A stretch of DNA of 64,000 nucleotides from Bugula neritina. Lineage: Eukaryota > Bryozoa > Gymnolaemata > Cheilostomatida > Bugulidae. The translations under genes and the position numbers were made by a program. Shown in pieces: positions 18,362-63,052 of the stretch. The notes under the pieces were generated by a model. The model was not told the DNA's origin, searched no databases, and was given only the letters and a program-made list of their open reading frames with translations. The stretch covers positions 9,140,751 to 9,204,750 of the forward strand of contig OZ037773.1 in the NCBI GenBank assembly GCA_964035545.1, in the 5' to 3' direction. The stretch's first letter is position 1, and each line of letters begins with the position of its first letter.

Positions 18362-18726
18362 TTATTTTTTTGACCCATGATTCTGACGAACTTGGAGTCT
18401 TCTATTGTTGATCACTGAGCTTTTCCCCCAAAACAAGAATCCGTGAGTTGTACCTTCAAAAGACAGTAACATTATTCAACATCCCCTAAACATAAACTGT
18501 ATAAAAGAAAGCAACCTATAATATATCTATTTTAATTATTAATATGGTATTTCAAGCGAAGTATATAATAGGATAAGAACGTCTATAACAATTATGTTAC
18601 ATTTCTGCAGTAAGCAACTATACAAGCACTGTTTGCTATTGGTAAATTGTAACAGTATAACTCACCGAGCATGTTCATAGACAGCATAACCATGACAACC
18701 ACCAGTAGGAAATGTAGAAACTTCAT
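18362..18726 (-). CDS. secreted peptide gene A (family with conserved signal exon)
   Basis: Two coding exons on the minus strand: 18726-18666 (61 bp, ATG, donor GTGAGT) and 18453-18362 (stop TAA), joined in phase 1 to 50 aa. Exon 1 encodes a signal peptide (MKFLHFLLVVVMVMLSMNML). Exon 2 encodes a 29-residue Lys/Arg-rich region beginning TTHGFLFWGK, with an RR pair and a GSKK end. A 5' UTR exon with a GTGAGT donor (ends 19032) lies downstream of a TATA box at 19100-19091, and the signal exon has an acceptor at 18749. Genes at 27, 38, 44 and 62 kb share the signal sequence, exon length and intron phase. The peptide could be antimicrobial, hormonal or a signalling ligand; the sequence does not say which. 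Confidence 0.65.
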
Positions 18727-19090
18727 AGCTGCAGTCTAAGTCTTGCTACTGTAATATACATTATTTGCTTGCATACATATAACTTTCTTTCAGATACTAT
18801 TGTTTATTGACAACCCTTGCATGTGTATAGAGATAGGTAAATATTTTACAGCGATTTTATTTAGATACAAACTCTAGATTAAAAGTTTTTGGGTTCAGTA
18901 TATGAAACAAATAAATGTTGTATGATCAACTTTTAAACAAATTTATAAAAAAGCTTAGCTATATTTTATTAAAAACACTAGTTTCTATATCAGCTTTAAC
19001 ATTTAAATAAAACATTTCATGAAATACTCACTAGTCTACAATGTGTGATATTTAGAAAAAGCACTCTGTTATAAACTGTGCAACCAGAAC

Positions 19091-19100
19091 TTTATATATA
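19091..19100 (-). promoter_or_regulatory. TATA box of peptide gene A
   Basis: TATATATAAA on the minus strand lies about 30 bases before a likely start and a short 5' UTR exon ending at a GTGAGT donor (19031-19026). Confidence 0.45.
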
Positions 19101-20515: not shown

Positions 20516-21128
20516 CACTTTGCTGGTTCGGTTCTTCATGCGGTTTGTTTACGTAAGTTTTATTTTATTTGTTTCCTAATTATATTCAACTTGTCAACAG
20601 TGTTTTTAACTGTGATGATTGATTACTTAATTTGCTTTTGTTGCAATGATATATTATTAGTCAACACTCACAGTGATACATATATGTACAGAGTTTTAAA
20701 GGTACTTGAGTATATAGATTAGTTCAAAAATACTTAAAACAATTTTTCTCACTTTTTTCTATACCTACCTTTTGTATTTTTCGATGGAATCTAATTATCC
20801 AACATATTCATAGCACTTTCTGTTCTGAATTCATGCAGTTACTTAGCTTATATAGCTTATACCAATTAAGATAATCACACCACACTATATTTAAATTATA
20901 TATATAGTGTGTTACCATACTGTATACAGCAGCTGATTATGTAGAAAGTTAAACACTCAACATTCTAATTAGCTCAGCTATTTTGCTAAAAGTATGTGAA
21001 TTTTATTTCTAGAAGATATTTCTTCTAGAAATAAAAGAAGCTAAAGTATTCAACCTATGTCATTGCAAGAAAAAAATCTTTTCATAATATTTTATTTACT
21101 GTAACTATAAAGCCGTATATCTTTATAC

Positions 21129-22978: not shown

Positions 22979-22980
<2 letters not shown>

Positions 22981-23013: not shown

Positions 23014-23016
<3 letters not shown>

Positions 23017-27195: not shown

Positions 27196-27843
27196 CTAAA
27201 TCCGAACTACTCTCTCCTGCATCTTGTTCAGTCCATACACCACTGACCTCTTCTGGACCTTGTTCAGTCCATACACCACTGACCTCTTCTGGACCTTATT
27301 CAGTCCATACACCACTGACCTCTTCTGGACCTTGTTCAGTCCATACACCACTGACCTCTTTTGGACCTTGTTCAGTCCATACACCACTGACCTCTTCTGG
27401 ACCTTATTCAGTCCATACACCACTGACCCTGATGTCTCCTCTGTAAGTGTATAAGTAGTTCACATAAAAAGCAACATATCATATCTCATATATACACAAA
27501 ATATAAAATGCAAATCATCACATTACTTGTTATTGTTATGGTATGAGTCATGATTGCTTTTTTTTAACTGCACCTGATGACCTTAAAATAATAAATCAGT
27601 CAATACTTCTGCATGGCTTATATAATGAGCCATGCATATGCGTCTATATGGCTATATGTCAGATAAAACATATTTAAAAGCACTAAGATGTAATAGGTAA
27701 CCAAAGACAAAATCATGCTTAAACAAGCCCGATTTTGGTCTGTTTAATCATTTGTTTAGCCTAAAATTAAACTAAAACTTACCAAAAGAAAACAGACAAA
27801 AAAGTAGCATAATCATGAGCCAGCAAAAAACTTGAAGCTTCAT
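27196..27843 (-). CDS. secreted peptide gene B: multi-copy peptide precursor, six 12-residue units
   Basis: Minus-strand exon 1, 27843-27783 (61 bp, donor GTAAGT), and exon 2, 27440-27196 (acceptor ACTTACAG), join in phase 1 to 101 aa. Exon 1 is a signal peptide (MKLQVFCWLM, then a hydrophobic run). Exon 2 begins EETSG and then carries six head-to-tail units SVVYGLNKVQKR. The last unit reads KMQER and is followed by VVRI and the stop. The Lys-Arg at the end of five units is the classical prohormone-convertase site, so the precursor could release several copies of a decapeptide SVVYGLNKVQ. No C-terminal amidation Gly precedes KR. The KxQKRS core is also found in peptide D (KIQKRS). Neuropeptide, pheromone or defence peptide are all possible. 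Confidence 0.75.
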
Positions 27844-34909: not shown

Positions 34910-34920
34910 TTGTAGCTTCT

Positions 34921-50200: not shown

Positions 50201-53200
50201 ATCCATATTATAAAATAACGTAATAATAAAAATCATTTTTTTATATAAATGGACTTTCGACGAGAAAAATTAGAACTCTTAAATGATGAAATTATTAAAT
50301 TAGAAAACGAATACGAACAAAAACTTAATCGTTTTAATTGGTTATCGAAATCGTTAAAAATAATTTCTGGATTATGCGGTACAACTAATTTAATATGCGG
50401 TGTTATTATTACGGCGTTATTAAACGCTAACGTTACTAAACAAACGTTATTACCATTATCTATAATAGTAAGTATAATGAGCGTAATTACTACTTCTATT
50501 TCTTCTCAAGATACTAAATTAATTAAATCTACGTTAATGTATTTAGATATATATACCTTTATAAAAGATTCAAAATTAGAAATTAATTCTATGTTATCAA
50601 AATTTTTAAGCGACTCTCATATAGACGAACGAGAGTACGACGCTATAACCGAAAAATATAAAAATATTAATAGCGTAATATCGGATAAAAAAAGTGACAT
50701 AATAGTCGCTCGTAACAACGTTTGTTAATTAATTGCATTTTGCAAGTAATTAAAAAAGGGAGTTCAATACACCGTATAGGCTGCTAAATAGCGCGTAATA
50801 ATCGGTCCTGAGAGCGAATTACGTGTGCCGTATTATACGCACATTTATATATGTTTTCTTTAACTATAATATTTTTTATTTTAATGTAAAGCGTCATTTC
50901 TTCTTTTTTCTATTTCGTCTTCGGCGTATTTTAGTTTAGTAAAGAATGACGATATTCTAGCCGCCGCGTAATTCATTAAACCTACGTTAAGTTCTTGAAT
51001 TATTTCTTTAGTTTTGTAAATAGTTTTTATTTTTAATTTTTCATCATTTTCTTTATAAATAATTTCTCTTTTATTAGTATAAACGCGTTCTTCGAGTAAA
51101 CCACGTTTGTTAGACGGATTAGTCATTTCGTCTAATATATTAAAATTTTTATATATAATTATTTCTTTTAAATCACCGCTTTCGTACATTCGTTTTTCGT
51201 ATTCGGAAGTTTTATATATCGTTTCGGTAATCGGGGTGCCGTCGAGGCTTTTATAAGTAATTACTGTTGGATCAACCATTTATATATGTTTTCTTTAACT
51301 ATAACAGCATGCCTAAAAGAGGAATGTTTTTAAACGGACTATTCGGACCTAAAATTAAACCTTCGCCTTTTATATAGCTAGAACCTTGTTTTAAATATAA
51401 ACCGTTACCCTTCATTAAATTAGACGACGCGACTGGTTTTAAAGTAATAGAACCGTTTGAATTAGGTTCTACGGAACATACGCATCCGCCTCTTTTCAAA
51501 TAAAGACCTTTACCTTTAATAGCTCTTTCGACTCCCGCGCTAGCGGCTCCTGAAAGTACGCCGGGTATAATAGTTTTTAATAGCGTAGGTATTACTCTCG
51601 TGGCTATACCCAATAGAGCTCCTAAAAATCCTCTGCTCATTGACGCGTTAGTTTTTACTAATGACGGAGACATTTCGAGCGTTATATTTTTTTTATTCCC
51701 GTTTAACGCTTTTAAAATATTATCATTTTGCGTTTTCGTAACGAGTAGTTTATCGTTTCCGCTTTCGAGAGGCAGTTTAATAACGCAACCCTTACCGCTT
51801 CTATAAGCGTTCATTATTTTTTGTTTTTGCGCTTGTGGCACGTTTCCTATAATTTCGCAGTAACCCATTTATATAATACATTAAACTTCTCTTAAATGAA
51901 ATCTTATTGAAAGTTGTTCGCCGCTAAGATCTAATAAATTACCTTTTTGATCGGTTACCGTAACGGTTAACGTCTTAATATATTTAACGTGAACGGGTAA
52001 GTATATTAAATTATGAGGTTTTTCTATTATTTTATATCCAGGACTAACGCTCGGAAAAAATGAATAGATAACGGGTTTATAAGTACCATCGATATAACTT
52101 CCGTTAATACAATCAACTTGTACGTGTATAGCGTTTATATTTAAAATATTTACTATGTTCGTAGCTTCGATATATGGTTGATTATATATCGTCGCGTCAA
52201 AACCTAAAACGTCTCTTAAAGAATTTTCAACGTTAAAATCTATTTGATAATTTGGTTTTAATTTAAGTATGATTCTAAAAGTTACTTTATTAGCTTGCAA
52301 AGTAATACCGTTTCTATTACCCCCCTCTTTTACTATTTCGTCTTGAATAGCTTCTTCTAATTGATCTAATTCGTACACTCCAACTGGTAACAAAACTAAA
52401 TGCCGCGTAGTACCACCGTCTTTAGACCATCTATAGGAATTTCTATCGGTACTAATGTTTGGAAAAGAATAAAACGTATCCAAACTAATAAGACACATTT
52501 CGTATTTTTTATTTTTATTTAATTCTATAGGCGGATTAAGTTGAGTAATTATTCTCGTTTTAGTATCGATAACTCCTATAGTCATCGTTTGTTTAGAGGC
52601 CGTATTATCAGCAATTTCTCTTAATAATTTATTTTCCATTTATATAACTTTTAAATTATTTCCATCGGAACTGAGAGACATAGTTTTATCCGATAAAATT
52701 AACGCGTAAGCTTGAGTATTAGCCGGCACGTTTTGACTAAACTGAACTCTCAATTGAATATCGGCTACGCTACTTTTAAGAGCTTCGCTTTGCTTACTAA
52801 CGTCTATTACGAACAAAGCGTAAAGATCTTTATATTCCGAAGGTAATACGTTTGAATAAGCGATTAGCTCGTTTATACCGTAATATTCTCCGCAAAACTT
52901 AGAAGCGTCTCCGTACACTCTACTAAACTTCATTTTAGCGAAATCTATATCGTAATCAACCTCGGGATATCGCTCGCTATTTAGCATCGCGTATACGCTT
53001 TTAACGTTAACGTGATCGAATACTGCCGGATTAGTCGTTTGACTTTCAGTCTTATTCGTTTGAAAACCTACAATAATATATTTAGGTTTTTCCGTATCAC
53101 CTCTAGAACCCAAACGCCACGTAAAATTAGTAGTTTGCGGCACCGCGATACTATCACACCATCTAGATCTATAAATTAGGGGTAGTTGCGCCTTACTCTC

Positions 53201-56200
53201 TATAATTTTATAAAGCTTATGTTTCATTTCAAAACTAGGCGTTATATGTGGCATCCACCACGACACTTTATCCAACGTTATTTTTCCCGCGTCTACGCCG
53301 TTAGCTCTAAATATGGCATTATCATTAGTATCGCGTACTAGCGTTAGTTGATGTTTTATACCGTATAATACTTTTTCGTAGTCGTCGGCGAACCCGAACA
53401 AATGTCTGAGATCCACTTTAATACTAAAAGTACCTTTAGGGTCAGGCTTTTGTATAATATAAATTTGACGAGCGTTAAAACCTAAATTAGCGGCGGCAGC
53501 GGCTGCGGTAGTATCTTTTGACCACAACTGATTAAGACCTCTCGACTTGCCGTAATCGTCGGGATAAGGTAGTAAACCCATTATAGTCGAAGCGTGTCCG
53601 GGATTATTTATATATTCCAAATTGTGTCCGTCGAGTTGATATCTAATACTTTTAAACAAATAAGCCATACCGTTATTCGTTAACGTTACTAAGTCGGCGT
53701 CGGCGTATGCGGTTCCATCGGCTTTAGTTAAACGACCTTCAATAATTAAATAACTTTTACTCGGCTGAACGTACAAATCTTGCTGATTAATAACTATTCT
53801 AATTTCACCTGGGTTATCTAAATTTGTTCCCGTTACGGGTTCGTATTCGTGCACCTGATCGCGCTCTACGCTCGTATCGAGTACAATTTTTTGTGTAATG
53901 TTTAAAGAGTCCATTTATTATAGTAAAATAATTTCTTAATAAGCTATAGCTTGTCCGCTTCCTTCTAAAATATTACTTATATTACTATTATTTAATACAT
54001 CTTTAGCTAAACTAAGTTTTTGTAATATAGCTTGACTTTTAGCGTTTAACTTTTTTTGCCTTCTTTTCTTAATCGCGTTAACAATTTTTTCACCGGCCGC
54101 GGTACCCGCTTTAGCTATAGCCTTTTTACCTAATTCTCTTACGCTGGAATTACTAGCTATTTTAGTTACTACATTCCTAATGGTATCAAATATTCCACCA
54201 CCGGCGTAGTGTCTTTGTAATCGTTGTCTTTTATCGTAAACGTACATTTATTATACGAGAATACTTTTATAATAGTCACGAGTAATAATTTTCATTCTAA
54301 GTAATTCGTCTAATATAGACACAATTTCGTTTCGCACTCCCGTATTTCCGGCTTTAGCGCTAGAAATTAAAAGTTCGAGTCGTTCTACTAAAGCATTAGG
54401 ATCAGACGATAAATATACTACTCCATCACCGACTTGCCTTTTAGCTTTTTTACTATCAGCGAGTTTCGCTCTCTGAGGATATAATTGTTCCCAAATAGGT
54501 CTAACAATATTTTTCCATTTTTCACTATTTTTATCTATGGGACCGTGTTTACTTTGATATATAGCGCCGCTATTATCGAGTATATTAGCGTAATTCGCTA
54601 AATCATTATCATCGTATCCTATAGGCGTTTTACGCGTTAAAAGACTTAAAAGTCCTCTAGTCGCCGGATATTCTTCGTTTTCAAAAATTATTTTACCATC
54701 GTTAAAGCTTATAGGTTTTGTACCAATAACGTGTCTATTACCATCCCACTTTACGTTATAAGCGCCGGGTTCTAAGCCAGCTAAAGCGTTTTGAGTAAAT
54801 TCGTCTAAATTTATAACTCCATCCGTTATAGCCGGTTGAACATTATAATTGGGTAATGTAAGCAATTGTTTTAACGCGTCAGTCGTTTGAGCTTGCGAAG
54901 TCGTTACGGGTTCAAAATATTTTTCTTGAGCTATAACCGCATTTTTTTCTCGCTCGCGTTCTCGTTTAAAATTTTCTTTTATTTTATTCTTTTGAGAAAT
55001 AAAATCTTGTACGGTTTTATCTCTTTTTATAGGGTCGTAAATCTTTAAGTAACTCATTTATTATATATTAATTTGTGTCCACATTTGTGTCCACTTTTGT
55101 GTCTAGTGTCCACATTTGTGTCCACTTTTGTGTCTAGTGTTCACATTTGTGTCCACTTTTGTGTCTAGTGTCCACATTTGTGTCCACTTTTGTGTCCACT
55201 ATAATCGTTCTAAAACGTTTAAATTTACCCACGAGTTTTGAGAATCGGGATAACCCAACCATTTTACTAAAGCCTTTTTACCTTTCTTTTTAATTACGCG
55301 CTCTATTCTATACATTTCTTGACTCGTCTTTTGTAATTCCTGTTCGTAAAAAGATCCTTGAATTTCTTCCCCACCCGAGTCGGTTAATTTATAAGTAGTC
55401 GGATTCGTATATAATATTTTACTTATAGTAAACACCTCCTCCGTCCATCTAACTGTATAACCTTTTTCAAACGTTCGTTTCTTACGAGGTATACGCACTC
55501 TATCACCTATAGCGAATTTAGGTTTAGAAGGCGCTGGTAAGTTTGGATATAATTTCACGCGTACTTTATTTTCGTTAGAAGGATTACTAGCTTCAATCGG
55601 TGTCATTCCAATAGACGAATGTTTAGTCTCGTTATACCGTTTTACTAAATCTTTTAGTACGTCTATATATTTATAAGTATTATTAGCTGAAAAATATTTA
55701 AACATTCGCTCTTTCATTGTTCTATTCCACTTCTCTACTACGCTAGACTTTTCTTCATTTTCCGTAGAATATAAATCTATTAAAGACTTTACGTCTTTGT
55801 TATAAAACTCTTTTCCCTTGTCAACCCATAAATGTTGAGGTTTACGACGAGTTAAAATTGTTTTTAAAGCTAAAGCCGTCGCTTTACCGGTTTTATTTTT
55901 TAAAGGTATTATCCAACCGTATTTTGAAAACACGTCTATTACCGTTAGTAAATATTTATAACCGTTATTAAATTTAGCGAATTCAGTCATATCAACCAAG
56001 TCAGCCGCCCAAATATTATCGATACCCGATACCCAAACTCGTCTTTTACGAAATTTTTTTTGTACGGGTTTATGCAATTCTTCGGCTAACTCGTTCGTCC
56101 ATCCCCATCCTAAACGCTTTTTCGCTCCTATTATTGCTGAGGCGAAACGACTGTGTCGCTGTTCGGAGGGCGTAGGATTAGGTATAGCTTTTAGTTCGTC

Positions 56201-59155
56201 TAGCATATTTTTATCACATATTTCGTTTCTAGTTTTAGTATCTTTATTAAGCTCGTAACATACGTCGTGTCTCATGGCTATAGCGTCGTCTCGATCTACC
56301 GGTTTACTCCATTCTTTAGGAGTCATGTCGTCATTTAAACGCTTATTTAATTTAGTACCCGGTCCTAAAAAATTATGGCCTGGATAATTCAATTCAAAGG
56401 GTAAATTATTTATTAAATTATTAGCTAAACTCGACCCAACGAATGTAGTCTTTTTACATCCGCATTGACCGCAATTACCGTAACCCATTAGTCTATTATT
56501 TTTACTTACTCTCTTTTCGTAATTAAGAGTTTTCGTTTTAATTTTACACTTACAACAATACATTTATTATAATAAATGGAAATAGAAAATCTTTCGTGGA
56601 AAAACGAAATTAATCGTAATAATAATCCTTTACTTCCTAAAAGCATAAGAGGTCTTATCGTTGGAAAATCTGGATGCGGTAAAACTACGTTACTTTGTAA
56701 CTTACTATTACAACCTAATTGGCTCGATTACGATAAACTTATGATTTACGGTAAAAGTCTTTCTCAACCCGAATATATAAATATGAGAAAGGCTTTCGAA
56801 CGTAAATTAACTAAAGAAGAAATTTTAAATTTTTTTAAAAATAGTGACGCGATAATAAATTCGGGTATAAACGTAAATCGTGTTTTAAAAAATAGTAGGG
56901 GTAACGGTAATATAGACGCCGAATTAATCGAATCTAGTGACGACGTTTATGATCCTAGCGAATTAGACGCTAGTAATAAAAATTTAATAATATTCGATGA
57001 TTTAATGTTGGAAAAACAAAAAACTTGCGAAAGTTATTACGTAAGAGGACGACATAATAACGTCGATTGTTTTTATTTGTCGCAAAATTATTTTAAGCTG
57101 CCTAGAAATACTATTCGAGAAAACGCTAATTTTTTTTGCTTATTTCCTCAAGACGGAAAAAATTTAAATCATATATATCAAGATCACGTAACCGGAGATT
57201 TAACGTTAAACGAATTTAAAAACTTTTGTTATAAAGGATGGCAAAAACCTCACGGCTTTATTACTTTAGATCTTTCTTCCTCAAAAAATAATGGGAGATA
57301 TAGACACGGGTTAGACGAATTTTATATACCGTAATAAATGAGTGTTTATAAATTTGGAAAATCGTTAAAAAAAGATAATTTTATCGAAAGAGTTGTAACT
57401 AAGAATAATGAATTTCTTGTTCAATCTACTAATACAACTATTAATATAGCGATGTTATTGGGGTATATAGTGGATAAACCTATTGAACTAGCGTACGCTT
57501 TATTAGAGTTGCAACATTTACCGGTTAATGATAATAATTCTTTGTATTGGAAGGATAAGAAATTAACTTTAGTTATTGGAAATATTAACGGTCCTATTAG
57601 ACACGAAAGTAAGGAATATATAATTCGAGGAGGCGTCGCGAGTATAAAAATACCTATGCTGGAATATATCGAGAGTAATAAAAATATTGGATTAGTATTG
57701 GAGTGTTCGAGCGATTATACTAGTCGTAAACCTAACAATATTATAGTTAATGACGGCGCGCCTATTACTTTACCATTCGAATTAGCGTTGTTAAAACTTT
57801 ACTACGATTATAAATGAGTGTTTATAAATTCGGAGGAAGCGGAAAAACGGAAATAAATACAAAAAAATTCGTTTTAATAAACGGTAGTAGTACTCTTACG
57901 GGTACGTTAGATATGGGTGAAAATAAAATATCTAGAGTTATTAATCCGGTTGACGATCAAGACGTAGCCACAAAAAAATACGTTGACGATACGAGTATGC
58001 CTAAAATATTACATCCTATTAATCAGTTAACTATATCAACCGACGATGGACGCGTTATAGATAGCGATTTAAAAGTTGATGATGTCGTTACGAAAACTAA
58101 TGTATTTAATTACGCCGTACCTCTTATACGAGACTCGAGTGAAAAATTAACCGTATCAACTAATACGGGTAATATTGTAGATAGTAGCTTAAGCGTTAGC
58201 GATATCGTTACGACTAGTAATATAAATAATTTCGCTATAAATAAAATACAACCCGCGAATGAAAAATTAACCGTTTCAACTACTTCGGGTAATGTTGCGG
58301 ATAGTAGTTTAAGCGTTAGCGATGTTATTACGACTAGTAATATAAATAATTTCGCTATGAATAAAATACAACCAATAATCGGAGGTAAATTATTAATGCT
58401 TTCGAGCGATGGTAATATCGTAGAAACGGGTATAAATATTTCAGATCTTATTACAATAAATAATATAAATAATTACGCTATTCCTAAATTACAAGGAGCA
58501 GTTGGTAATAAATTAATTATATCAACGAATGATGGAGGTATAACCGAATCTACAGAATCTTTACCGACATTTCCAAGTTATGACGTTTAAACGCTATTAG
58601 TATCGTATTGTGAGCCAGAACCATCCACCCTAAAAATATTTTTTCTTATTTTTAAAAAAATATTTTTCTAAATAAAATTTATAATATTACACTACTTTTT
58701 ATAATATTACACTACTTTTTATAATATTACTAATAGAGTAGTAGCAGGTGGATGCGTCCTGGATCGCTCTTCTGACACTGTTGAGTCAAAGACTCGACGG
58801 TGGAAGAAGAGTGAGCCAGGACCATCCACCTGCTACTACTTATGTCAGATTATACCATAATTATATACTTCGAAATATAATGTGTTGTTGTTTTAGGCAT
58901 TTTTTAGATTCTAATATCTTGGGTTCATGCATTAAGATGTTGAAACATTACAACTGCAATGTCTTTTAGTTTTACAAATTATACTTATTATATATAGCTA
59001 TAGGTTCTCCGTTATATATATGTGTAATATTTACAGGGCAGATTTTCGGAGCAAGGCTTTTTAAATTCTATAAAATACAAAAGAGATCGATTTTCAATTT
59101 GCAAGAAGGAATAAGACGCCCTCCCCCACCCATTCGTGTCTGTGGGATTTGGTAA
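44209..59155 (+). CDS. secreted peptide gene D, intron occupied by the Polinton
   Basis: Exon 1, 44209-44269 (61 bp, donor GTGAGT), and exon 2, 59037-59155 (acceptor ATTTACAG, stop TAA), join in phase 1 to 59 aa. Exon 1 gives the family signal peptide (MKFQFCCWLMLFTAVCLGNF). Exon 2 gives GQIFGARLFKFYKIQKRS, then a segment with an internal RR, four prolines and a VCGIW end. The mature part has eight Arg/Lys and one acidic residue. KIQKRS matches the unit boundary of gene B (KVQKRS). The 14.77-kb intron contains a complete Polinton; without it and one target copy the intron would be about 320 bp. Whether splicing still works across the insertion is unknown. Confidence 0.65.
44394..44399. repeat. 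target-site duplication, left copy (TATGTC)
   Basis: Six bases directly before the Polinton end, repeated exactly after the right end. Six bases is the usual length for Polintons. Confidence 0.9.
44400..44620 (+). repeat. left terminal inverted repeat with foldback terminus
   Basis: The outer 104 bp (44400-44503) are an imperfect palindrome: AGTAGTAGCAGGTGGATG is complemented at the inner end, and the centre is GTCGAGTC-TTT-GACTCGAC. Further in are TAATATTATAAAAAGTAGT repeats and, at the inner edge, GGTGGATGGTTTTAGCTCAC, a diverged copy of the outer arm. Confidence 0.9.
44726..45250 (-). CDS. Polinton spike-like protein, left copy 2
   Basis: 174 aa, not known by name. Related to its neighbour (45247-45768) and to the plus-strand protein at 57338: shared N-terminal tag (IYKF), (V/I)D(K/E)PI, LYW(T/K)DK(K/R), a Ser-x-Pro/Tyr-Thr-Ser-x-Lys-Pro-(D/S/N)-Asn-(I/V)-Ile block near residue 140, and a KLYYN end. 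Regular alternation of polar and hydrophobic residues suggests a beta-rich domain. Its stop overlaps nothing downstream; its ATG overlaps the stop of the upstream gene (ATGA). No signal peptide. Position next to the TIR at both genome ends suggests a virion-surface or other accessory role. Function is inferred. Confidence 0.75.
   Translation of the reverse strand: MNIYKFSKVDITTNRAFISDFIYARKFYYYKNINSFTVDLINDYLVDKPIKITHALIQFYGEQMSHQNTKALYWTDKKLGLHIRNSVNPFDESKENLFYTISGAEHNVPYSKININKTVNANNNFSFTIALSSDYTSHKPDNIILTDTPNIEYPTVAIPFYYVYFKLYYNSINE
45247..45768 (-). CDS. Polinton spike-like protein, left copy 1
   Basis: 173 aa, paralogue of the next gene (FYGEQ, LYWTDKR, NI(R)NS, SHKPSNVILTDTP, KLYYNYK). 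Begins MTSVYIFGNSAKA, the variant form of the SVYKFG tag. Its ATG directly follows the protease stop (TAAATG), and its own stop overlaps the next start, so all three are probably read from one region. Confidence 0.75.
   Translation of the reverse strand: MTSVYIFGNSAKATIINEKPYITNIIIPSEFLYYDDIGFTTELIKDFLVDEPIEITNILVQFYGEQAHNTKKLYWTDKRVTISIRNSTELFGPSDKNTSYDISGNEHNIPFSEINANKIIEANKNFTLSITLSKTFPSHKPSNVILTDTPASEITTAALPFHYVLIKLYYNYK
45769..46182 (-). CDS. adenovirus-type cysteine protease (Ulp1-like)
   Basis: 137 aa. The catalytic set of the C5/C48 fold is visible: His63 in GTHWVAWY, Asp78 in YYFDSFG, Gln104 in VQEFGTVICG, Cys111 in ICGHLCLYWL. In Polintons and adenoviruses this enzyme cleaves precursors of capsid and core proteins during maturation. 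Possible (M/I/L)xGx-G sites occur in the 189-aa, 103-aa and 454-aa products of this element. The start overlaps the 3' end of the polymerase gene by eight bases. Confidence 0.9.
   Translation of the reverse strand: MIKIKNIKLQNKALSNIELEFTIKKLKIPFFRGVFSRNDLPNIPRKKECGILNLDDLMGNGTHWVAWYKNGNKKYYFDSFGLRPPLEIMKYLKGPIFYNTERVQEFGTVICGHLCLYWLKEMSKHESPQLIINKLLI
46175..49777 (-). CDS. protein-primed family-B DNA polymerase
   Basis: 1200 aa. Two SAP/Rho-N-like repeats at the N-terminus (about 8-37 and 46-72, each with KRYSRL), a C2H2-type finger (HICVNC ... HQDWC, about 345), exonuclease motifs I (YANFECF, about 407), II (HNLSGYDAHLF, about 549) and III (YMKVDVLHLADVF, about 707), an endonuclease-VII-like Cys/His cluster (CYICEEKL ... 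DHCHLTGNYRG, about 502), then polymerase motifs A (YLDANNLYGWAM, about 808), B (KLMNNSVFGKT, about 944) and C (LLFTDTDSL, about 1045) and FVGLRAKLY. Replicates the element from protein-primed ends. Exo motif I has Asn where Asp is expected, so proofreading may be weakened. Full length and uninterrupted. Confidence 0.95.
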   Translation of the reverse strand: MEYYAEKLTIKSLTALAKKRGIKRYSRLNKTDFMRLLKVEDEFKTVKDLKLIAKQKGLKRYSRLKRVELIQLLINNDVTPVLKSEAANGWFQTYEIKGLPGYDINTFCELVKLNVLELLKPTIKVKIFLYCKIKKHNISTGETIIEIMPFTSNVEIILASTNVDEIYDEIIERIKENFASLNAKGSNWMFNSVIKMEININKYQPFNGSSWIDLPKEIKTKKAVINPKNKDDKCFMWAVLMGVYPVNKNVERISNYKEHVNKLSWEGVEFPATKESIDAFEKVNPSIGINVFTWNDSTINLWRKTSSQNKIINLLYITDGEKNHYTYIKNLNKLLGSQINKRVNAKHICVNCMNSFRSNESLKKHQDWCLRNDSVTTTFPKLEDKIKFQSSHHCRSMRVPFVVYANFECFTKPIHGCKPNFKESYTNQYQQHKPSGFGYYIVSVTGESNYRTYTKKTEDENIGEQFIRLLEFDIKNIYKKYKFSKPMRISADEQNSFELAKICYICEEKLGDKKVRDHCHLTGNYRGAAHKECNLNYKIPKFYPVFIHNLSGYDAHLFIKNLGGKISCIPNTEEKYISFSKKLIVDEFTKDNKNIEVTREIRFLDSYKFMSSSLASLVANLKRDDFKHLGEYCKGKQLDLVLRKGVFPYDYFNNLSVLDETSLPPKEKFYSSLTEQNISEEDYIHAQNVWQKFNMRTFKEYYNLYMKVDVLHLADVFENFRNVCLKYYKLDPAWYYTAPGLSWDAMLKTTELELDPIIDVNQLLFFEKAIRGGVSVISHRHAKANNKYMENYNPEEPSSYIVYLDANNLYGWAMSKNLPTGNFKWLTEKRCKSLEKSLNFPPSFLEVDLEYSNKLHNSHKDYPFCPERLTVNKVEKLIPNLNNKKNYIIHYKALKQCLMYGLKLTKIHRGITFNESDKLEKYIKLNTELRTLARSDFEKDFFKLMNNSVFGKTMEDIRNRVNIKLVTSESEAKKLTNQPNFKSFTIFSKNLVAVHTNVTKLKFDKPVYLGAAILDISKILMYDFHYEYIKHKYNNKAQLLFTDTDSLMYHIKTENFYKDILPDIENKFDTSNYPKNHKSGIPTGKNKKIIGKFKDEAGGKQITEFVGLRAKLYSYKMNDIEEKKCKGINKTTRDNRITFDDYKECLLTRRDQLRMMNVLRSHKHTMYAETINKVALSSEDNKRIILEDGIMTVPYGYIND
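49890..49946. ncRNA. conserved intergenic hairpin element, copy 1
   Basis: Stem CGCGCAAT (49904-49911) pairs with ATTGCGTG (49931-49938); inner stem CCG (49915-49917) pairs with CGG (49928-49930), with GTGAGAG in the loop. Shares GGCTGCTAAA and GTGTGCCGTAT flanks with copy 2. Lies just past the stop of the minus-strand ORF ending at 49958. Could be a terminator or 3'-end structure, a small RNA, or a packaging or replication site. Confidence 0.6.
49958..50206 (-). CDS. small Polinton protein of unknown function
   Basis: 82 aa from the ATG at 50206, or 92 aa from the in-frame ATG at 50236. I prefer 50206 because TATAATATG there resembles the start motif of the other genes and the longer form runs into the opposite promoter. 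Basic, helical, with VCGTGNTHANLAIARHF near the centre. No family recognised. Confidence 0.6.
   Translation of the reverse strand: MDLTVELLDKLIAQSKQKKYAKLTNIDILPLPDNYVCGTGNTHANLAIARHFNLNYHSYRDMSKFKAQLVKKMKDIVRGNEL
50207..50248. promoter_or_regulatory. divergent promoter region
   Basis: A 42-bp gap between the 82-aa gene (-) and the 159-aa gene (+). The plus side has TTTTTTTATATAAATG with the ATG at 50249. The minus side has TTTTATAATATG. Confidence 0.5.
50249..50728 (+). CDS. Polinton membrane protein with coiled coil and two transmembrane segments
   Basis: 159 aa. Residues 1-30 are a charged amphipathic helix (REKLELLNDEIIKLENEYEQ). Two hydrophobic segments follow, at about 38-58 (IISGLCGTTNLICGVIITAL) and 66-88 (LLPLSIIVSIMSVITTSI), then a soluble helical tail rich in Lys/Glu/Asp. 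This is a two-helix hairpin topology. Function unknown; membrane remodelling or a holin-like role would be guesses. Confidence 0.75.
   Translation: MDFRREKLELLNDEIIKLENEYEQKLNRFNWLSKSLKIISGLCGTTNLICGVIITALLNANVTKQTLLPLSIIVSIMSVITTSISSQDTKLIKSTLMYLDIYTFIKDSKLEINSMLSKFLSDSHIDEREYDAITEKYKNINSVISDKKSDIIVARNNVC
50779..50833. ncRNA. conserved intergenic hairpin element, copy 2
   Basis: Stem CGCGTAAT (50792-50799) pairs with ATTACGTG (50818-50825); inner stem TCG (50802-50804) pairs with CGA (50815-50817). Two base pairs differ from copy 1 on both sides (C-G to T-A in each stem), which keeps the pairing. Lies just past the stop at 50881 of a minus-strand ORF, as copy 1 does. Confidence 0.6.
50881..51279 (-). 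CDS. Polinton protein of unknown function, 132 aa
   Basis: Charged, Lys/Glu-rich protein beginning MVDPTVITYKSLDG and ending with a helical KYAEDEIEKRRNDALH. No signal or membrane segment. No family recognised. Start supported by TATATAAATG. Confidence 0.7.
   Translation of the reverse strand: MVDPTVITYKSLDGTPITETIYKTSEYEKRMYESGDLKEIIIYKNFNILDEMTNPSNKRGLLEERVYTNKREIIYKENDEKLKIKTIYKTKEIIQELNVGLMNYAAARISSFFTKLKYAEDEIEKRRNDALH
51299..51868 (-). CDS. Polinton minor virion protein with Gly/hydrophobic segment (pX/pVI-like)
   Basis: 189 aa. A central hydrophobic Gly/Ala-rich stretch (FLGALLGIATRVIPTLLKTI, then IPGVLSGAAS) lies between a basic N-terminal part and a C-terminal part with three similar segments, IKGKGLYLKRGG, MKGNGLYLKQGS and IKGEGLILG. 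Each contains a match to the adenovirus-protease consensus (M/I/L)xGx-G. Comparable small membrane-active proteins occur in adenoviruses and adintoviruses. The comparison is by character, not by alignment. Confidence 0.7.
   Translation of the reverse strand: MGYCEIIGNVPQAQKQKIMNAYRSGKGCVIKLPLESGNDKLLVTKTQNDNILKALNGNKKNITLEMSPSLVKTNASMSRGFLGALLGIATRVIPTLLKTIIPGVLSGAASAGVERAIKGKGLYLKRGGCVCSVEPNSNGSITLKPVASSNLMKGNGLYLKQGSSYIKGEGLILGPNSPFKNIPLLGMLL
51881..52639 (-). CDS. minor capsid (penton-type, single jelly-roll) protein
   Basis: 252 aa. Position directly after the major capsid gene, size, and segments such as YEMCLISLDTFYSFPNI, GVYELDQLEEAI and LRDVLGFDATIY fit the Polinton minor capsid protein that forms the pentameric vertices. 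It would be the attachment point for spikes such as those encoded near the TIRs. Start supported by TATATAAATG. Confidence 0.85.
   Translation of the reverse strand: MENKLLREIADNTASKQTMTIGVIDTKTRIITQLNPPIELNKNKKYEMCLISLDTFYSFPNISTDRNSYRWSKDGGTTRHLVLLPVGVYELDQLEEAIQDEIVKEGGNRNGITLQANKVTFRIILKLKPNYQIDFNVENSLRDVLGFDATIYNQPYIEATNIVNILNINAIHVQVDCINGSYIDGTYKPVIYSFFPSVSPGYKIIEKPHNLIYLPVHVKYIKTLTVTVTDQKGNLLDLSGEQLSIRFHLREV
52640..53914 (-). CDS. major capsid protein (double jelly-roll)
   Basis: 424 aa. Typical Polinton MCP segments: PSKSYLIIEGRLTKADG, GMAYLFKSIRYQLDG, FNARQIYIIQKPDPKGTFS, DLRHLFGF, and W(R)LGSRGDTEKPKYIIVGFQT. Forms the hexameric capsomers in related viruses. Its stop directly abuts the minor capsid start (TAAATG). 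Full length. Confidence 0.9.
   Translation of the reverse strand: MDSLNITQKIVLDTSVERDQVHEYEPVTGTNLDNPGEIRIVINQQDLYVQPSKSYLIIEGRLTKADGTAYADADLVTLTNNGMAYLFKSIRYQLDGHNLEYINNPGHASTIMGLLPYPDDYGKSRGLNQLWSKDTTAAAAAANLGFNARQIYIIQKPDPKGTFSIKVDLRHLFGFADDYEKVLYGIKHQLTLVRDTNDNAIFRANGVDAGKITLDKVSWWMPHITPSFEMKHKLYKIIESKAQLPLIYRSRWCDSIAVPQTTNFTWRLGSRGDTEKPKYIIVGFQTNKTESQTTNPAVFDHVNVKSVYAMLNSERYPEVDYDIDFAKMKFSRVYGDASKFCGEYYGINELIAYSNVLPSEYKDLYALFVIDVSKQSEALKSSVADIQLRVQFSQNVPANTQAYALILSDKTMSLSSDGNNLKVI
53936..54247 (-). CDS. small basic virion-type protein with amphipathic helix
   Basis: 103 aa. After a short basic leader ending HYAGG come an amphipathic helix (GIFDTIRNVVTKIASN) and a Lys-rich segment (KKAIAKAG ... 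KKRRQKKL), and the end is ILEGSGQAIAY. LEGS-G fits the adenovirus-protease consensus. The make-up resembles pVI/pVII-type minor core proteins of adenoviruses. No direct homologue recognised. Confidence 0.7.
   Translation of the reverse strand: MYVYDKRQRLQRHYAGGGIFDTIRNVVTKIASNSSVRELGKKAIAKAGTAAGEKIVNAIKKRRQKKLNAKSQAILQKLSLAKDVLNNSNISNILEGSGQAIAY
54251..55057 (-). CDS. conserved Polinton protein of unknown function (DUF8207-like)
   Basis: 268 aa. A charged coiled-coil N-terminus (KENFKREREREKNAVIAQ) is followed by a domain with VIGTKPISFNDGKIIF, ATRGLLSLLTRKTP, GYDDNDLANYANIL and KWKNIVRPIWEQLYP. I recognise this pattern from many invertebrate Polinton-associated proteins, where it is annotated only as a domain of unknown function. 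It sits between integrase and capsid genes, so a virion role is likely. Confidence 0.7.
   Translation of the reverse strand: MSYLKIYDPIKRDKTVQDFISQKNKIKENFKREREREKNAVIAQEKYFEPVTTSQAQTTDALKQLLTLPNYNVQPAITDGVINLDEFTQNALAGLEPGAYNVKWDGNRHVIGTKPISFNDGKIIFENEEYPATRGLLSLLTRKTPIGYDDNDLANYANILDNSGAIYQSKHGPIDKNSEKWKNIVRPIWEQLYPQRAKLADSKKAKRQVGDGVVYLSSDPNALVERLELLISSAKAGNTGVRNEIVSILDELLRMKIITRDYYKSILV
55072..55198. repeat. 31-bp minisatellite inside the Polinton
   Basis: About four units built from GTGTCCACATTT, GTGTCCACTTTT and GTGTCTA, between the 3' end of the integrase gene and the start of the 268-aa gene. This is the longest non-coding spacer between these minus-strand genes. Confidence 0.9.
55199..56563 (-). 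CDS. PLA2-like / RVE integrase / chromodomain fusion
   Basis: 454 aa. Residues 1-36 form a zinc ribbon (C3, C6, C31, C34). Residues about 60-150 match the viral phospholipase A2 type known from parvovirus VP1 and Polinton proteins: Ca-loop FLGPG (65-69) and catalytic HDVCY (His99, Asp100, Tyr103). Residues about 180-325 are a retroviral-type integrase core with Asp188 (IWAADLVD), Asp248 (LWVDKGKEF) and Glu277 (SSVVEKWNRT). Residues about 415-454 are a chromodomain (YRIERVIKKKG, LVKWLGYP, SWVNLNVL). Integrase and PLA2 are usually separate proteins in such elements as I know them; here no stop separates them. LMGYG near residue 28 could be a protease site. Confidence 0.85.
   Translation of the reverse strand: MYCCKCKIKTKTLNYEKRVSKNNRLMGYGNCGQCGCKKTTFVGSSLANNLINNLPFELNYPGHNFLGPGTKLNKRLNDDMTPKEWSKPVDRDDAIAMRHDVCYELNKDTKTRNEICDKNMLDELKAIPNPTPSEQRHSRFASAIIGAKKRLGWGWTNELAEELHKPVQKKFRKRRVWVSGIDNIWAADLVDMTEFAKFNNGYKYLLTVIDVFSKYGWIIPLKNKTGKATALALKTILTRRKPQHLWVDKGKEFYNKDVKSLIDLYSTENEEKSSVVEKWNRTMKERMFKYFSANNTYKYIDVLKDLVKRYNETKHSSIGMTPIEASNPSNENKVRVKLYPNLPAPSKPKFAIGDRVRIPRKKRTFEKGYTVRWTEEVFTISKILYTNPTTYKLTDSGGEEIQGSFYEQELQKTSQEMYRIERVIKKKGKKALVKWLGYPDSQNSWVNLNVLERL
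56561..56578. promoter_or_regulatory. palindromic bidirectional start element
   Basis: CATTTATTATAATAAATG is an exact palindrome that contains the start codons of both the integrase fusion (-) and the ATPase (+), leaving only 12 bp between them. Each side is the TAATAAATG form of the start motif found at the other genes. Confidence 0.75.
56576..57334 (+). CDS. genome-packaging ATPase (FtsK/HerA, A32-like)
   Basis: 252 aa. Walker A GLIVGKSGCGKTTLL (about 26-40), Walker B NLIIFDDLML (about 136-145), then CESYYVRGRHNNVDCFYLSQ with the sensor-type Gln and arginines. This is the standard Polinton/adintovirus packaging ATPase, expected to pump the genome into capsids. Followed by the spike gene after a TAATAA. 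Confidence 0.92.
   Translation: MEIENLSWKNEINRNNNPLLPKSIRGLIVGKSGCGKTTLLCNLLLQPNWLDYDKLMIYGKSLSQPEYINMRKAFERKLTKEEILNFFKNSDAIINSGINVNRVLKNSRGNGNIDAELIESSDDVYDPSELDASNKNLIIFDDLMLEKQKTCESYYVRGRHNNVDCFYLSQNYFKLPRNTIRENANFFCLFPQDGKNLNHIYQDHVTGDLTLNEFKNFCYKGWQKPHGFITLDLSSSKNNGRYRHGLDEFYIP
57338..57817 (+). CDS. Polinton spike-like protein, right copy
   Basis: 159 aa. Begins MSVYKFGKSL. Paralogue of the two left-end proteins: VDKPIEL, LYWKDKKLTLVIGN, SDYTSRKPNNIIVND, LLKLYYDYK. Its stop overlaps the next ATG (ATGA). Function unknown. The shared SVYKFG tag with the fibre-like neighbour suggests docking to the same capsid site. Confidence 0.75.
   Translation: MSVYKFGKSLKKDNFIERVVTKNNEFLVQSTNTTINIAMLLGYIVDKPIELAYALLELQHLPVNDNNSLYWKDKKLTLVIGNINGPIRHESKEYIIRGGVASIKIPMLEYIESNKNIGLVLECSSDYTSRKPNNIIVNDGAPITLPFELALLKLYYDYK
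57814..58590 (+). CDS. fibre-like protein with tail-fibre repeat
   Basis: 258 aa. N-terminal tag MSVYKFGGSGKTE, then GTLDMGENKISRVINP and DDQDVATKKYVDD, the motif typical of phage tail fibres and short-tail-fibre shafts. Four repeats of about 40-45 residues follow: EKLTVST(N/T)(T/S)G(N), (D/E)SSLSVSD(I/V), (T)TSNINNFA(I/M)NK. Such repeats form trimeric beta shafts in fibres. Likely a vertex fibre anchored through its tag. The assignment is by motif, and the tip is short (PTFPSYDV). Confidence 0.75.
   Translation: MSVYKFGGSGKTEINTKKFVLINGSSTLTGTLDMGENKISRVINPVDDQDVATKKYVDDTSMPKILHPINQLTISTDDGRVIDSDLKVDDVVTKTNVFNYAVPLIRDSSEKLTVSTNTGNIVDSSLSVSDIVTTSNINNFAINKIQPANEKLTVSTTSGNVADSSLSVSDVITTSNINNFAMNKIQPIIGGKLLMLSSDGNIVETGINISDLITINNINNYAIPKLQGAVGNKLIISTNDGGITESTESLPTFPSYDV
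58610..58840 (-). repeat. right terminal inverted repeat with foldback terminus
   Basis: Inverted copy of 44400-44620, slightly longer by an extra copy of the TATAATATTACACTAC repeat. The outer 104 bp again form the palindrome, with one change in the central arm (TTGAGTC). Confidence 0.9.
58841..58846. repeat. target-site duplication, right copy (TATGTC)
   Basis: Exact match of 44394-44399. Confidence 0.9.
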
Positions 59156-61757
59156 AGTGGCTTATAGAGCCATGAATTCTAAAAAAAGAATAATGTTTTT
59201 TTTATAAGTATAAATTATTATAATGAAAAGTTTTCACTTGACTGATGAAATAAAAATAATATGTTTGAGAGCAAAATAAATGCAAACAGCTTTATTGATT
59301 ATTACAGTTACATAATAGCAATTAGATGTAATTAGAAAATTTGAAAAGGTCAAAAGAAACAAAATTGAAAGAAATTTTGATTCAAGTATAAGTTTACAAT
59401 TTAAAGGCAGTTTCAAAGCACGGTATGTAGAATAAAGCACTGAATTATTAATTAGTAAAACTGTACTTGCATAGCAGCAAAAGTTAATAAAACAAAATAA
59501 TTATTTTGATATTATTATTATTAATCACAAATATAGTTAATTTAAGAGCGTATACATATATGGACATAGGATAATTAAATTCTGTATATCTTTTTGCAAA
59601 GGATATTCTATCTTTAAGTTTTAAAACAATTTAACCTATAGTGCTTTAAATAGAATGGCTTTCAGCTTTTGTTAATTAAGATTTTTTTTAGTACCAGTAT
59701 TTGTTATTGTAAATTTGAAACTTTATAGGCCAAGCGTTTTAATACAATTTTATCAATTAATTCATTGGTTAATGTTTTCTCAAATTGATAATCTTTTATA
59801 AAATTTTAATTATTTATTCTGTTTTATTTTATGCTTTGTATGTTTCAAGTATTGATTTTAGGTTTCTTTGACACAAGAAATAAGTTTAGAAAAATCTATG
59901 CCTTGAAATGATCCCACAAAACATTGTTGCTTAAATTTCTAGAATAAATATTTTTACAACTTTTCAAACAGAAAGCTTTAGGTAAAAACCTATAGGTTGA
60001 AGCAGCTAAATAGCTAATTGTATTTCAATAATTTAAATTTTCAATGCAAAGTCTATAAGTATGCACAGATATAACAATACCAAACAATATAAAGTTTTAT
60101 AGCATTAATCAACAATAAATTAGTTTAGCATTATAATTCACCAACATGTATTTATATTAATTGCCATGAAATAATATAATATTACTTTGTAGTTTTAATT
60201 CACTGTACAATTACTGCATGTGTAAAAAGTGGTAAAATAAAATGGTATCATAAAAAAGTGCTTATTTCTGTAATTTTCACAAAGTTGTAAAAATGTTTGA
60301 TTATATGCTTAAATTTTTTATTTTTGACTGGTTTTGCTTGCTTTAAACTTTTTATTTTATAAAACTGGTCGATTCAGCCAGAACTTTTATTCCCCTATAA
60401 CTATTATTGTCATAATACTAGTATAAAGACAAGCTATCAACATAACAAATATTTCACATATTTTTAAGCCTGTCGCATATCAAAAAAATGGAAAGACATT
60501 TATATATTCAATCAAAAAACATATTTTACAAGTTTCTTTTTGATAGTTAACATTCTTTAACAATTATATATGGAAAAGAATAAAATTATTTTATCTTCCA
60601 AATAACAAAAAATGGTTAACATATTTAAATTTGACTATTTGAAGTAAATGTGAAAGTTGTGATGTTACTCATATATAATAACTACAAATAAAAGCAGCTT
60701 GCATGAATTCAAAGATACAATAAAAGTGTTTGTTTTTTTACTTTTTTGACCTGAAACAAAGGTGTTGTTCACTAAAAATTAAATCTCATGGTATGAGAAA
60801 GCTAAGGTGTCTCGTGCTTCTGTTTCAAATCACTATCTAATGCTTTAATTTGAAACATGTTGTATATCTACTTATATGCACAACATATTTTTAATATGTA
60901 AAACATTATGTTGATTTTGGTAAAACTAGGCTACAATTTACTGAGATATAAACATGTTGCAGTAGATCTGTGATTTGTGTGAAGTGAAAGCTTTCATGTT
61001 TTCTTTAGAGCTTTTGACGACAAGCTGTGCCTCGATCCTATACAGCCATTTGACAAGAGCATATGTTATATGAACAGGTTGTGTGATAGAGCAAAATAAT
61101 CTTGACTCTAGTGAATTATAGTGTCAGCTTGGTGTGCTGAAATGCAATTTATATAGAATCACAATAAAAAGATACACCAGTAAGGATTGAGAACTTTGCA
61201 GTGTTATAAGACTTTGATGTGCATTATAGCAGTCACCCTAAACCAAATAAGTAATATACTGGTACTAATTATTACTGGACATGAAAAGAACATGAAAAGA
61301 TCGATTAACTTACTTGATGTAGCAGAAATACGGGTGGACATTAGGCTATATACGAAAACATCAGAATGCATGAGCATATCTTTAATCAAACAGCACTATA
61401 TAGGAGGTTGTTTGGTTGCTAAAAGCTGCATCTCAAACCGAGTAAGATATCCTATATATATTTATACACACTATAATATATATTATAGCTAGCTGAGTAT
61501 CAAATCAGATATTTTAATAAGAAACAGAGAATTTTTTCATCACAGTATATTAATATTTGTACTAATTAACAGCATTTTTATTTAATAAGTATTTGTTTAC
61601 AATTAATGCAAAACTTTTGTTTATTTTGTATAAATATAATATAATATTATATTATTATATTACAATATTATAATATCATGTTATAATATATTTTTATATT
61701 GTTTCATATGTAATAATGACATGTTTGTTCCCAAAATGCTTTAGCAAATTCAGACTT
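59156..61757. other. gene-free spacer
   Basis: AT-rich, with poly-T/A runs. No supportable exon. Confidence 0.45.
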
Positions 61758-63052
61758 ATGAACATGAAGTTTCTACAATTTCTGCTGATACTCGTGATAG
61801 CCATGCTGTCCATGAACATGCTGCGGGTAAGCATAATACACATGCAGTATGTATTCTAACATTCTTTCATTTACTTATTATATAATTATTGCTAGTCTTA
61901 TGTTGCTAGTCTTATGGTTAGCAAAATATATATATTCTCAACTAGTCTCATCTATCTCTGCTTTGTTCTGTTTGAGTAGCGGGTGGCTGCCGGAGGCCTA
62001 GCTCAAGTAGGCTTCTCCATCTAGCCCTAGCTGTCCTGAGCGTCCTCTTTGTCAGGATTGGAGGTATTTTCTGATTGTATCCTGCCATCTATGCTTTGGG
62101 TGCCCCGGTTTCTCTTTCCTGCAACTTTCATCTCATGTTCTCTTGTGATATCATTCTCTTTCTCTCTCCTGCATAGATGTTCAAACCACTGTAGCCTTTT
62201 TCTTCTCATCACTTTTAACGCATTCGTTACTTTTGCTTCTTGCCTTATGCAGCAAAATATCTTTATATATGACATACAATCTATAAAATGGCAGGTAACT
62301 AACTAACTCTTTTACAACATACCCAAATATTTCAAGCAAAAGAATAATCAACTATAAGAAATACTTTTCAACACTTAATTCTACAATTTACAAAAGTTTA
62401 TAGCAATACATGCAGACGTTTTTTTCAAATTTAAGGTTGGCAACGCATTTCTTAATATAGTAAAGTCTTGTTATATAATTTCACAGTTGATTGGTATAAC
62501 TTATGGTAAAGTTAGAAGCTTGTAATATTCTGTATAATTGCAACTAAATTTTGAATACTAACCAAAGCACTTTGATCTAAAATTGAAATTTATAAATTTC
62601 ATACTCATTTTAAAAACAATAAAAATTGAAGTGGTCAGTATGTTTTGCAGCCTTTCATAACTTCCTTAAGTTATAAGTGCATGAGCGGCTTCAGATCCCT
62701 AGCAAATTTTTAAATAACTCCAATACTTCCAATTCTAACACTCATTACAATCATATATGAGCTATATGAGTTAGTTATGGTATGTATATTATATATTTAA
62801 ATCCATACAAAGCGTGCGTATATGTAGCCTACTTATTTCAATACTCGTTCAATGTAAAGATATCGGTATATTATGATTTCAAGCCGTAGCACAAAGATTC
62901 CAGCATTCTTGAGCAATATTATTTGATTCTACGTTGGCTAATTATGTTTTTTATATTCAATTAAAGGTACAAGTTCTGGGATGGCGGCGAAAAAGATGAG
63001 AAGAAGAGCAATAATACCAATGACCGGATTTAAGTCATTTCAAAGAGGCTGA
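61758..63052 (+). pseudogene. secreted peptide gene E, probably frameshifted
   Basis: Exon 1 (61758-61826, donor GTAAGC) encodes a signal peptide very close to gene A (FLQFLL ... AMLSMNML). Measured from the aligned ATG at 61764 it is 63 bp, two more than in the other four genes, so it ends in phase 0 instead of 1. Exon 2 (from 62967) has an open frame in the family phase that begins TSSGMAAKKMRRRA and ends FKSFQRG with a TGA at 63050-63052. Splicing at 61826 instead leads into another frame and a stop after VQVLGWRRKR. Either a fresh pseudogene or a member with a new short product; an alternative acceptor at 62973 is also possible. The 1.1-kb intron holds a LINE fragment. Confidence 0.5.
61950..62275 (-). 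pseudogene. LINE-type retrotransposon 3' fragment
   Basis: The minus-strand frame 62275-62027 contains RRKRLQWFEHLCRREKEND and KVAGKRNRGTQSIDGR, the typical end of non-LTR reverse transcriptases found in many animals (RLxWFGHxxR ... GKRxRGRP). Truncated and diverged, in the intron of peptide gene E. It is more GC-rich than its surroundings. Confidence 0.7.

Follow-up and report, generated by a model that had tools for sequence, protein, structure and literature searches.

A chromosome 9 cluster of small genes for predicted secreted peptides, with a conserved signal exon and a variable second exon, in the bryozoan Bugula neritina

By analyzing 64,000 nucleotides of chromosome 9 of the bryozoan Bugula neritina (C9:9,140,751-9,204,750, hereafter the window; 215.8-Mb genome), we found five small genes that share one plan: a signal exon, an intron and a single exon carrying a propeptide, KR/RR sites and a mature peptide. 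They belong to a cluster of at least 14 such genes, whose signal exons, five in the window and nine beyond it, extend over 106 kb of this one chromosome. We are confident of this gene and family architecture, and we hold fast evolution of the second exon to be highly probable. On balance, the cluster is best explained as a set of prepropeptide genes for secreted host-defence peptides; the defence function taken by itself, which is predicted from sequence features, is put forward tentatively. The assembly (GCA_964035545.1) comes from Plymouth material and gives chromosome 9 a length of 10.88 Mb (10,879,868 bp); transcriptome alignments went into its Ensembl annotation (PMC11480708).

Five genes in the window and nine beyond it

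The exons of the window genes, labelled A1, B2, B3, B4 and A5 in order, and the mobile element lying between two of them are as follows.

18666..18726 (-), A1 signal exon, coding part of 61 bp, phase-1 donor GTGAGT, MKFLHFLLVVVMVMLSMNML
18362..18453 (-), A1 second exon, GTTHGFLFWGKSSVINNRRLQVRQNHGSKK followed by a stop
27783..27843 (-), B2 signal exon, coding part of 61 bp, phase 1, MKLQVFCWLMIMLLFCLFSF
27196..27440 (-), B2 second exon, EETSG and a run of six 12-residue units, nearly identical (SVVYGLNKVQKR in five, SVVYGLNKMQER in the last)
38769..38829 (-), B3 signal exon, coding part of 61 bp, phase 1, MKLLSAYWLMLVAAFCLLAV
38310..38368 (-), B3 second exon, GESGKSTSRKSRRTPNKGK followed by a stop
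44209..44269 (+), B4 signal exon, coding part of 61 bp, phase 1, MKFQFCCWLMLFTAVCLGNF
44400..58840 (no strand assigned), Polinton-type element in the B4 intron, with terminal inverted repeats (TIRs), a 6-bp target-site duplication (TATGTC), capsid, ATPase and integrase
59037..59155 (+), B4 second exon, past the Polinton-type element, GQIFGARLFKFYKIQKRSIFNLQEGIRRPPPPIRVCGIW followed by a stop
61758..61826 (+), A5 signal exon, M(NM)KFLQFLLILVIAMLSMNML, phase-0 donor, phase-broken
62967..63052 (+), A5 second exon, phase-1 reading (G/R)TSSGMAAKKMRRRAIIPMTGFKSFQRG, 28 residues, not in phase with the A5 donor

A preliminary description of this DNA had placed five signal exons at 18.4, 27.2, 38.3, 44.2 and 61.8 kb on both strands, and all of them are present there. 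It had also called the exon exactly 61 bp long in four of them, which is correct, and described all five as ending one base into a codon at a GT donor, which is true of these four but not of the one at 61.8 kb, whose exon end (CTGCGG/GTAAGC) lies 63 bp from ATGAAG (61764) or 69 bp from ATGAAC (61758) and leaves phase 0. Likewise, the clean acceptors in matching phase had to be qualified: those of A1 and A5 (18.4 and 61.8 kb) end in AAG and are not the cleanest, and the second exon of A5 is out of phase. Finally, the exon pair proposed at 44.2 kb does exist, but the second exon lies 14.8 kb from its signal exon because the 14.4-kb Polinton-type element occupies the B4 intron.

The window and 100 kb on either side (264 kb) were scanned using BLOSUM62 with the five signal exons as seeds. 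Ten non-seed rows scored 34 or more, several of them copies of one another, and nine were accepted, whereas across six order-2 Markov resamplings of this sequence two rows reached 34 and no row exceeded it. The dropped row (68278 (-), score 38, in the numbering of the window carried past its ends, called window-extended below) is without a donor. All nine additional signal exons are located in the 61 kb that follow the right end of the window, and no row reached 34 in the 100 kb to its left.

window-extended 64718 (+), C6 signal exon
window-extended 66451 (+), D7 signal exon
window-extended 70339 (-), D8 signal exon
window-extended 72064 (-), C9 signal exon
window-extended 79530 (+), D10 signal exon
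window-extended 82541 (+), A11 signal exon
window-extended 91822 (+), A12 signal exon
window-extended 100921 (-), E13 signal exon
window-extended 124623 (-), F14 signal exon

The genome was also searched with nine precursors (D10, B4, A12, B2, E13, A1, B3, C6 and F14), only the best candidates being scored, so that counts are lower bounds. Among the matches listed there was no convincing family member outside the cluster. For eight of the nine queries these matches were confined to the cluster, save one row on chromosome 2 for F14 (E 0.17), which was not counted as a member; A12 gave a weak, stop-containing row inside the cluster (window-extended 85112, E 0.54). Of at least 144 rows for the B2 query, 2 fall in B2 itself and 142 elsewhere (best E 1.1e-6, 37% identity), and the latter were not counted as family because the alignment covers the 12-residue repeat. 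Long open frames resembling this repeat (about 33-38% identity) occur on contig C4:212801-226649 and are possibly other repeat-peptide precursors. Within B2, the coding repeat is itself a 36-bp minisatellite (27212-27428), so that peptide copy number could shift through repeat slippage.

The locus is in flux, to judge from two segmental duplications, lost and decayed exons, the phase-broken A5 and the Polinton in B4. First, an inverted duplication (64282-67461 versus 72500-69297, 90.5% identity) adjoins a run of exactly 2500 N (window-extended 72501-75000) at the outer end of its second arm; this gap, or withheld sequence, may hide more members. Second, a tandem duplication joins 77.6-86.4 kb to 87.2-95.7 kb, in pieces at 89.5-96.5% identity; together the two take in the C, D and A genes. 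Third, D' (window-extended 89497), a copy of D10, keeps a complete second exon, while about 300 bp including the signal exon are gone. Fourth, an F14-like second exon at window-extended 126770-126874 (-) has decayed: it contains an internal stop, and 2.7 kb of upstream sequence revealed no signal exon. The earlier idea of an expanding family thus holds, with nine more signal exons and recent duplications; gene death is seen alongside birth.

The Polinton-type element has TIRs of 231 bp at 91.8% and open reading frames (ORFs) for a double-jelly-roll capsid, an A32-like ATPase and an rve integrase, the last of which also matches a PLA2-like domain, with a chromodomain match below cut-off. A type B DNA polymerase is a Polinton feature; an ORF of 1200 residues in the element matched Rho_N and Endonuclease_7, and no polymerase match was obtained at E<=0.001. 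Elsewhere in the window, a tandem pair of genes that by eye are TRIM-like (RING and B-box matches weak, below Pfam cut-offs) lies directly left of the peptide cluster at 5558-16512 (-). A reverse-transcriptase ORF (RVT_1; 33548-35994 (-)) belongs to a retroelement that is by eye Penelope-like. An imperfect long inverted repeat at 25150-25410 (by eye) is possibly a small inverted-repeat transposon, and a 10-bp repeat, CTGTCACACG, stands in about 13 tandem copies at 21128-21256.

Precursor anatomy and a conspecific protein

Across the 14 genes, the coding part of the signal exon measures 55-64 bp and ends in a phase-1 donor in 13; signal peptides were judged on hydrophobicity alone. Thirteen genes are also open through the matched phase to a stop, phase having partly served as a selection criterion. 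Seven second exons (C6, C9, D7, D8, D10, A11 and A12) start in phase 1 with (G/R)-(T/A)-(S/T)-F-G-(L/F), as in C6 (GTSFGLTLKRQKRSPVTPPPGFQSLEKKFQS) and A12 (GTSFGLKERQLKRIKRYRPVGGVGFQ); those of E13 and F14 read GASGLKLSKVLKVNKRSLQNRGRTRGGKLWR and VAESQTNRFKLKDLLIQKRSLRQRGGGGGRRGNCPPNCTDG. The predicted mature peptides are short and linear, mostly 10-26 residues, and include SVVYGLNKVQ, YRPVGGVGFQ, ELRPPSHGLQMRLT and SLQNRGRTRGGKLWR. Several KR-separated units are found in B2, D8 and D10, the last with three units of the EL(R/G)PP type and TKR between them.

We found KR or RR in 13 of 13 second exons (14 of 14 with F14), compared to 8.9% (94 of 1054) of the null ORFs that follow acceptor-like sites, and a [QN]KRS site in six of 14 (B2, B4, C6, C9, E13 and F14), compared to five of the 1054. 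The selection of the second exons bears on these figures: the chosen exon ranked top in the acceptor-ranked candidate list for A11 only, and for A1, B2, B3, B4 and A5 the choice was made by eye or taken from the preliminary description, on phase and motif. Cysteine is absent from 12 of the 14 second exons (one in B4, two in F14), and an amidation-type signal (G and two basic residues) occurs in one, as the GRR of F14. Proline makes up 22% of the predicted mature peptide in C6, 18% in B4, 17% in B3 and 15% in C9 and D7, and at most 14% in the others.

An acceptor-like site lies 11-33 bp upstream of the ATG in the 13 genes tested. It has at least five pyrimidines in ten positions in all 13, compared to 36.7% of 5000 random ATGs, at least six in nine (24.8%), at least seven in six (11.8%) and at least eight in four (3.9%), an excess that is modest in a set including non-independent duplicates. 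In A5, A11, A12, C6, C9 and D10 the site is followed by CAA(A/G). This site, together with the annotated B. neritina protein EB796_005589, whose model diverges from the genomic reading at that very position, suggests an intron in the 5' untranslated region ahead of the signal exon; trans-splicing was considered as an alternative. The 61-bp exon first described would accordingly be the coding part of a longer one. Five promoter patterns searched in 400 bp upstream of ten genes were uninformative (zero were found, where for two of them chance predicted 0.6 and 1.6 occurrences), and NF-kB-like sites, of which almost none were expected, numbered zero there, which is neutral either way.

EB796_005589 (P0001, NCBI, 69 aa) came from a comparison of a profile of 11 precursors with protein databases, in which 7985 candidates were scored and three matched, all of them of E13 type. 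P0001 scored E 3.7e-7; the two others, the metagenome ORFs P0002 and P0003, scored E 4.1 and 5.8 yet have an identical signal, and each is a signal exon read into the intron. This bears out the earlier statement that single-exon ORF calling misses the family. P0001 joins the E13-type exons at SLTG/ASG, the junction predicted from the genome, and equals E13 across the entire signal exon and the propeptide GASGLKLSKVLKVNKRSLQ. After the propeptide hardly anything matches (P0001 tail GGPRDNEGCHGKLWC, E13 tail NRGRTRGGKLWR), in line with the constant signal and variable mature region first described. P0001 would be an orthologue or a paralogue of E13, between which one protein cannot decide. The EB796 records presumably stem from the draft genome of 2020, which is based on Virginia colonies and was annotated using AUGUSTUS with transcriptome hints (PMC7576161). 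For the exon preceding the signal exon of EB796_005589, the 20 kb ahead of E13 yielded no acceptable position (best score 21 of a possible 43).

No protein matched genes other than E13 in this profile search, in a D10 precursor search (201 candidates, none at E<=10) or with a profile of B2, B3, B4 and A1 (6521 candidates). Two candidates were rejected: a sub-threshold DIM signal match for D7 (Pfam, E 0.23), and BnPRP1 as a bryozoan peptide, which is from Brassica. Judged by these comparisons, the predicted peptides are unrelated in sequence to the known families tested.

Divergence of second exons, signal exons and flanks

The duplicates provide four pairs in which non-coding divergence within the same alignment serves as neutral reference; they are not all independent, since C6/C9 and D7/D8 come from one duplication and A11/A12 and D10/D' from the other. 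The second exon was 1.6-4.9 times as divergent as the non-coding flanks, significantly in three pairs: A11/A12 (8/80 versus 42/2036, p=0.0004), D7/D8 (25/170 versus 178/2760, p=0.0002) and D10/D' (11/155 versus 63/2828, p=0.001). The claim of a fast-evolving second exon stands on these three. In the pooled signal exons, non-synonymous changes affected 1/144 sites and synonymous changes 4/42 (p=0.01), and by this measure the signal exon is constrained.

Several results weigh against this picture. First, C6/C9 did not reach significance (9/87 versus 178/2760, p=0.18). Second, signal-exon divergence (0/61, 2/64 and 4/64) was in no pair significantly below non-coding. Third, in the dN/dS comparison proposed in the preliminary description, the second-exon pN/pS values (1.3, 0.64, 0.65 and, for D10/D', 0.2) are not clearly above 1. 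Fourth, the excess in D10/D' is mainly synonymous (7.5 changes versus 0.8 expected; non-synonymous 4.5 versus 2.5), in a comparison where a 16-residue unit is absent from D' and differences may be overstated by the way repeat units were paired. With synonymous sites raised too, the second-exon pattern is not a simple dN/dS above 1, and pN/pS does not establish adaptive diversification.

In A11/A12, C6/C9 and D7/D8 together, local non-coding DNA predicts 3.9 synonymous and 13.9 non-synonymous changes in the second exon, compared to 12.5 and 30.5 observed. Since both classes exceed neutral expectation, selection alone does not account for the synonymous excess. Its possible sources are a locally higher mutation rate, conversion from diverged paralogues, homogenisation of the flanks or wrong pairing of repeat units; the upstream 400 bp of A11 and A12 are identical. 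We think it quite unlikely that focal hypermutation or ectopic conversion acts on the mature-peptide exon besides selection.

Secreted defence peptides and competing explanations

The sequence supports a signal exon joined in phase 1 to the single exon with its short propeptide (of the (G/R)-(T/A)-(S/T)-F-G type in seven genes), KR/RR convertase-type site and short mature peptide. In the host-defence reading, the signal peptide would be removed in the endoplasmic reticulum, a furin/PC-type enzyme would cleave after KR, and the released peptides would act in host defence after secretion. While the secretion module stays constant, a supply of new peptides would come from duplication of genes, their death by exon loss or decay, and a focal excess of change in the mature exon. 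Such turnover and hypervariability resemble those of antimicrobial peptide (AMP) and venom families, and the peptides are short and linear, several of them cationic (E13 at +5, F14 and the last units of D8 and D10 at +3).

Other observations count against this explanation. The second exons had been described as basic, and whole exons indeed carry net charges of +5 to +15 (13 genes), but this basic look is in part due to the processing sites: predicted mature pieces range from 0 to +7, often no higher than +2 and many at +1, and the P0001 tail is at 0. A receptor ligand, too, could have the G-F/L-Q core that peptides of types A, C and D have in common. No Pfam family exceeded its cut-off for nine precursors (best sub-threshold E 0.0055, B2), and no PDB match fell below E 1.1. 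Moreover, the second exons were picked partly on phase and shared motifs, so that the 13 of 13 figures above are not blind.

By its logic of a conserved signal and a hypervariable mature region, the cluster groups with conotoxins, myticalins and frog skin peptides. Conotoxins carry a cysteine framework in the mature peptide, and we know of no venom organ in bryozoans. Conotoxin mature exons are reported to show about three-fold the divergence of the non-coding DNA flanking them, and, as here, a conserved signal and a fast mature exon go with mobile elements in introns beside the mature exon (PMC10561478); they are, however, disulfide-bonded venom peptides, unlike the 12 of 14 second exons here without cysteine. 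Myticalins and modiocalins of Mytilus and Modiolus are also a spiralian multigene family with a conserved signal, a hypervariable linear mature peptide, dibasic processing, a phase-1 intron, pseudogenes and an intron just ahead of the ATG (PMC5577615). Compared by description, they have a single exon for both signal and mature peptide, the phase-1 intron preceding the rest of a conserved C-terminal extension (PMC5577615), whereas here the intron parts the signal from a mature peptide that lies C-terminal to KR. Insect apidaecin-type polyproteins release several short Pro/Arg-containing peptides from processing sites, as D10 might, but their RREAEPEAEP spacer and C-terminal PRPPHPRL were not seen in the cluster precursors by inspection, and proline is lower here (PMC11549390). 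The 22% of C6 falls short of the 25% proline used as a cut-off for a cationic proline-rich AMP (PMC7736402). On the features tested, the family is neither conotoxin, myticalin nor formal proline-rich AMP. Frog skin dermaseptin-type precursors, likened by description, also pair a conserved signal with a hypervariable secreted peptide; they have an acidic propeptide and yield amphipathic helical AMPs.

The main competing explanation, which we regard as rather unlikely, is a neuropeptide or peptide-hormone family, in which prohormones would release short ligands at KR and paralogues would diversify ligand-receptor pairs. A signal, a propeptide, KR and repeated short peptides make up the classic prohormone anatomy, and here a hydrophobic signal peptide goes with KR/RR in every second exon. 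B2 holds six near-identical units, SVVYGLNKVQ and the ELRPPSHGLQMRLT-type units of D10 would be such ligands, many mature peptides are weakly charged, and the shared G-F/L-Q core fits as well. Yet the amidation-type signal is confined to F14, none of nine precursors reached the cut-off of a Pfam family, and a ligand constrained by its receptor would not usually show second-exon divergence above neutral together with a replaced conspecific tail. The BnFDSIG-like and BnPep-like neuropeptides of the same animal are also multi-copy peptides ending in KR; their sequences, given in Table 2 of a published neuropeptide survey of B. neritina and compared unaligned, are different, and that table holds no cluster peptide (PMC4990251).

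We consider improbable a role in recognition or reproduction (gamete, allorecognition or larval-settlement cues), with variability marking individuals or lineages. B. neritina is colonial, and between two of its genomes the E13-type gene keeps signal and propeptide while the mature tail is almost wholly different, but this rests on two sequences, possibly paralogues or from different lineages. Least probable of all is that a formerly functional family is drifting, its second exon variable because unconstrained: A5, D' and the decayed exon at 126770-126874 (-) would suit such relics, but relaxation predicts divergence equal to local non-coding DNA instead of the 2.3-4.9 times observed in three pairs, the signal exons favour synonymous change, and 13 of 14 genes still read in matched phase to a stop.

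Bryozoans are best known for symbiont-made bryostatins, and among the papers listed by literature searches, judged on titles and abstract openings, we found none on a bryozoan ribosomal antimicrobial or hypervariable secreted peptide family. The cluster illustrates a route by which such genes escape annotation, that is as short exons joined only through splicing. With young duplicates that carry their own neutral controls in introns and flanks, in a 216-Mb genome, it also makes selection alone versus local mutation or conversion directly testable. If hypermutation or conversion did act on the mature exon, the host would hold a locus-restricted generator of diversity for secreted peptides, possibly serving to police microbes, including the bryostatin-producing symbiont Candidatus Endobugula sertula.

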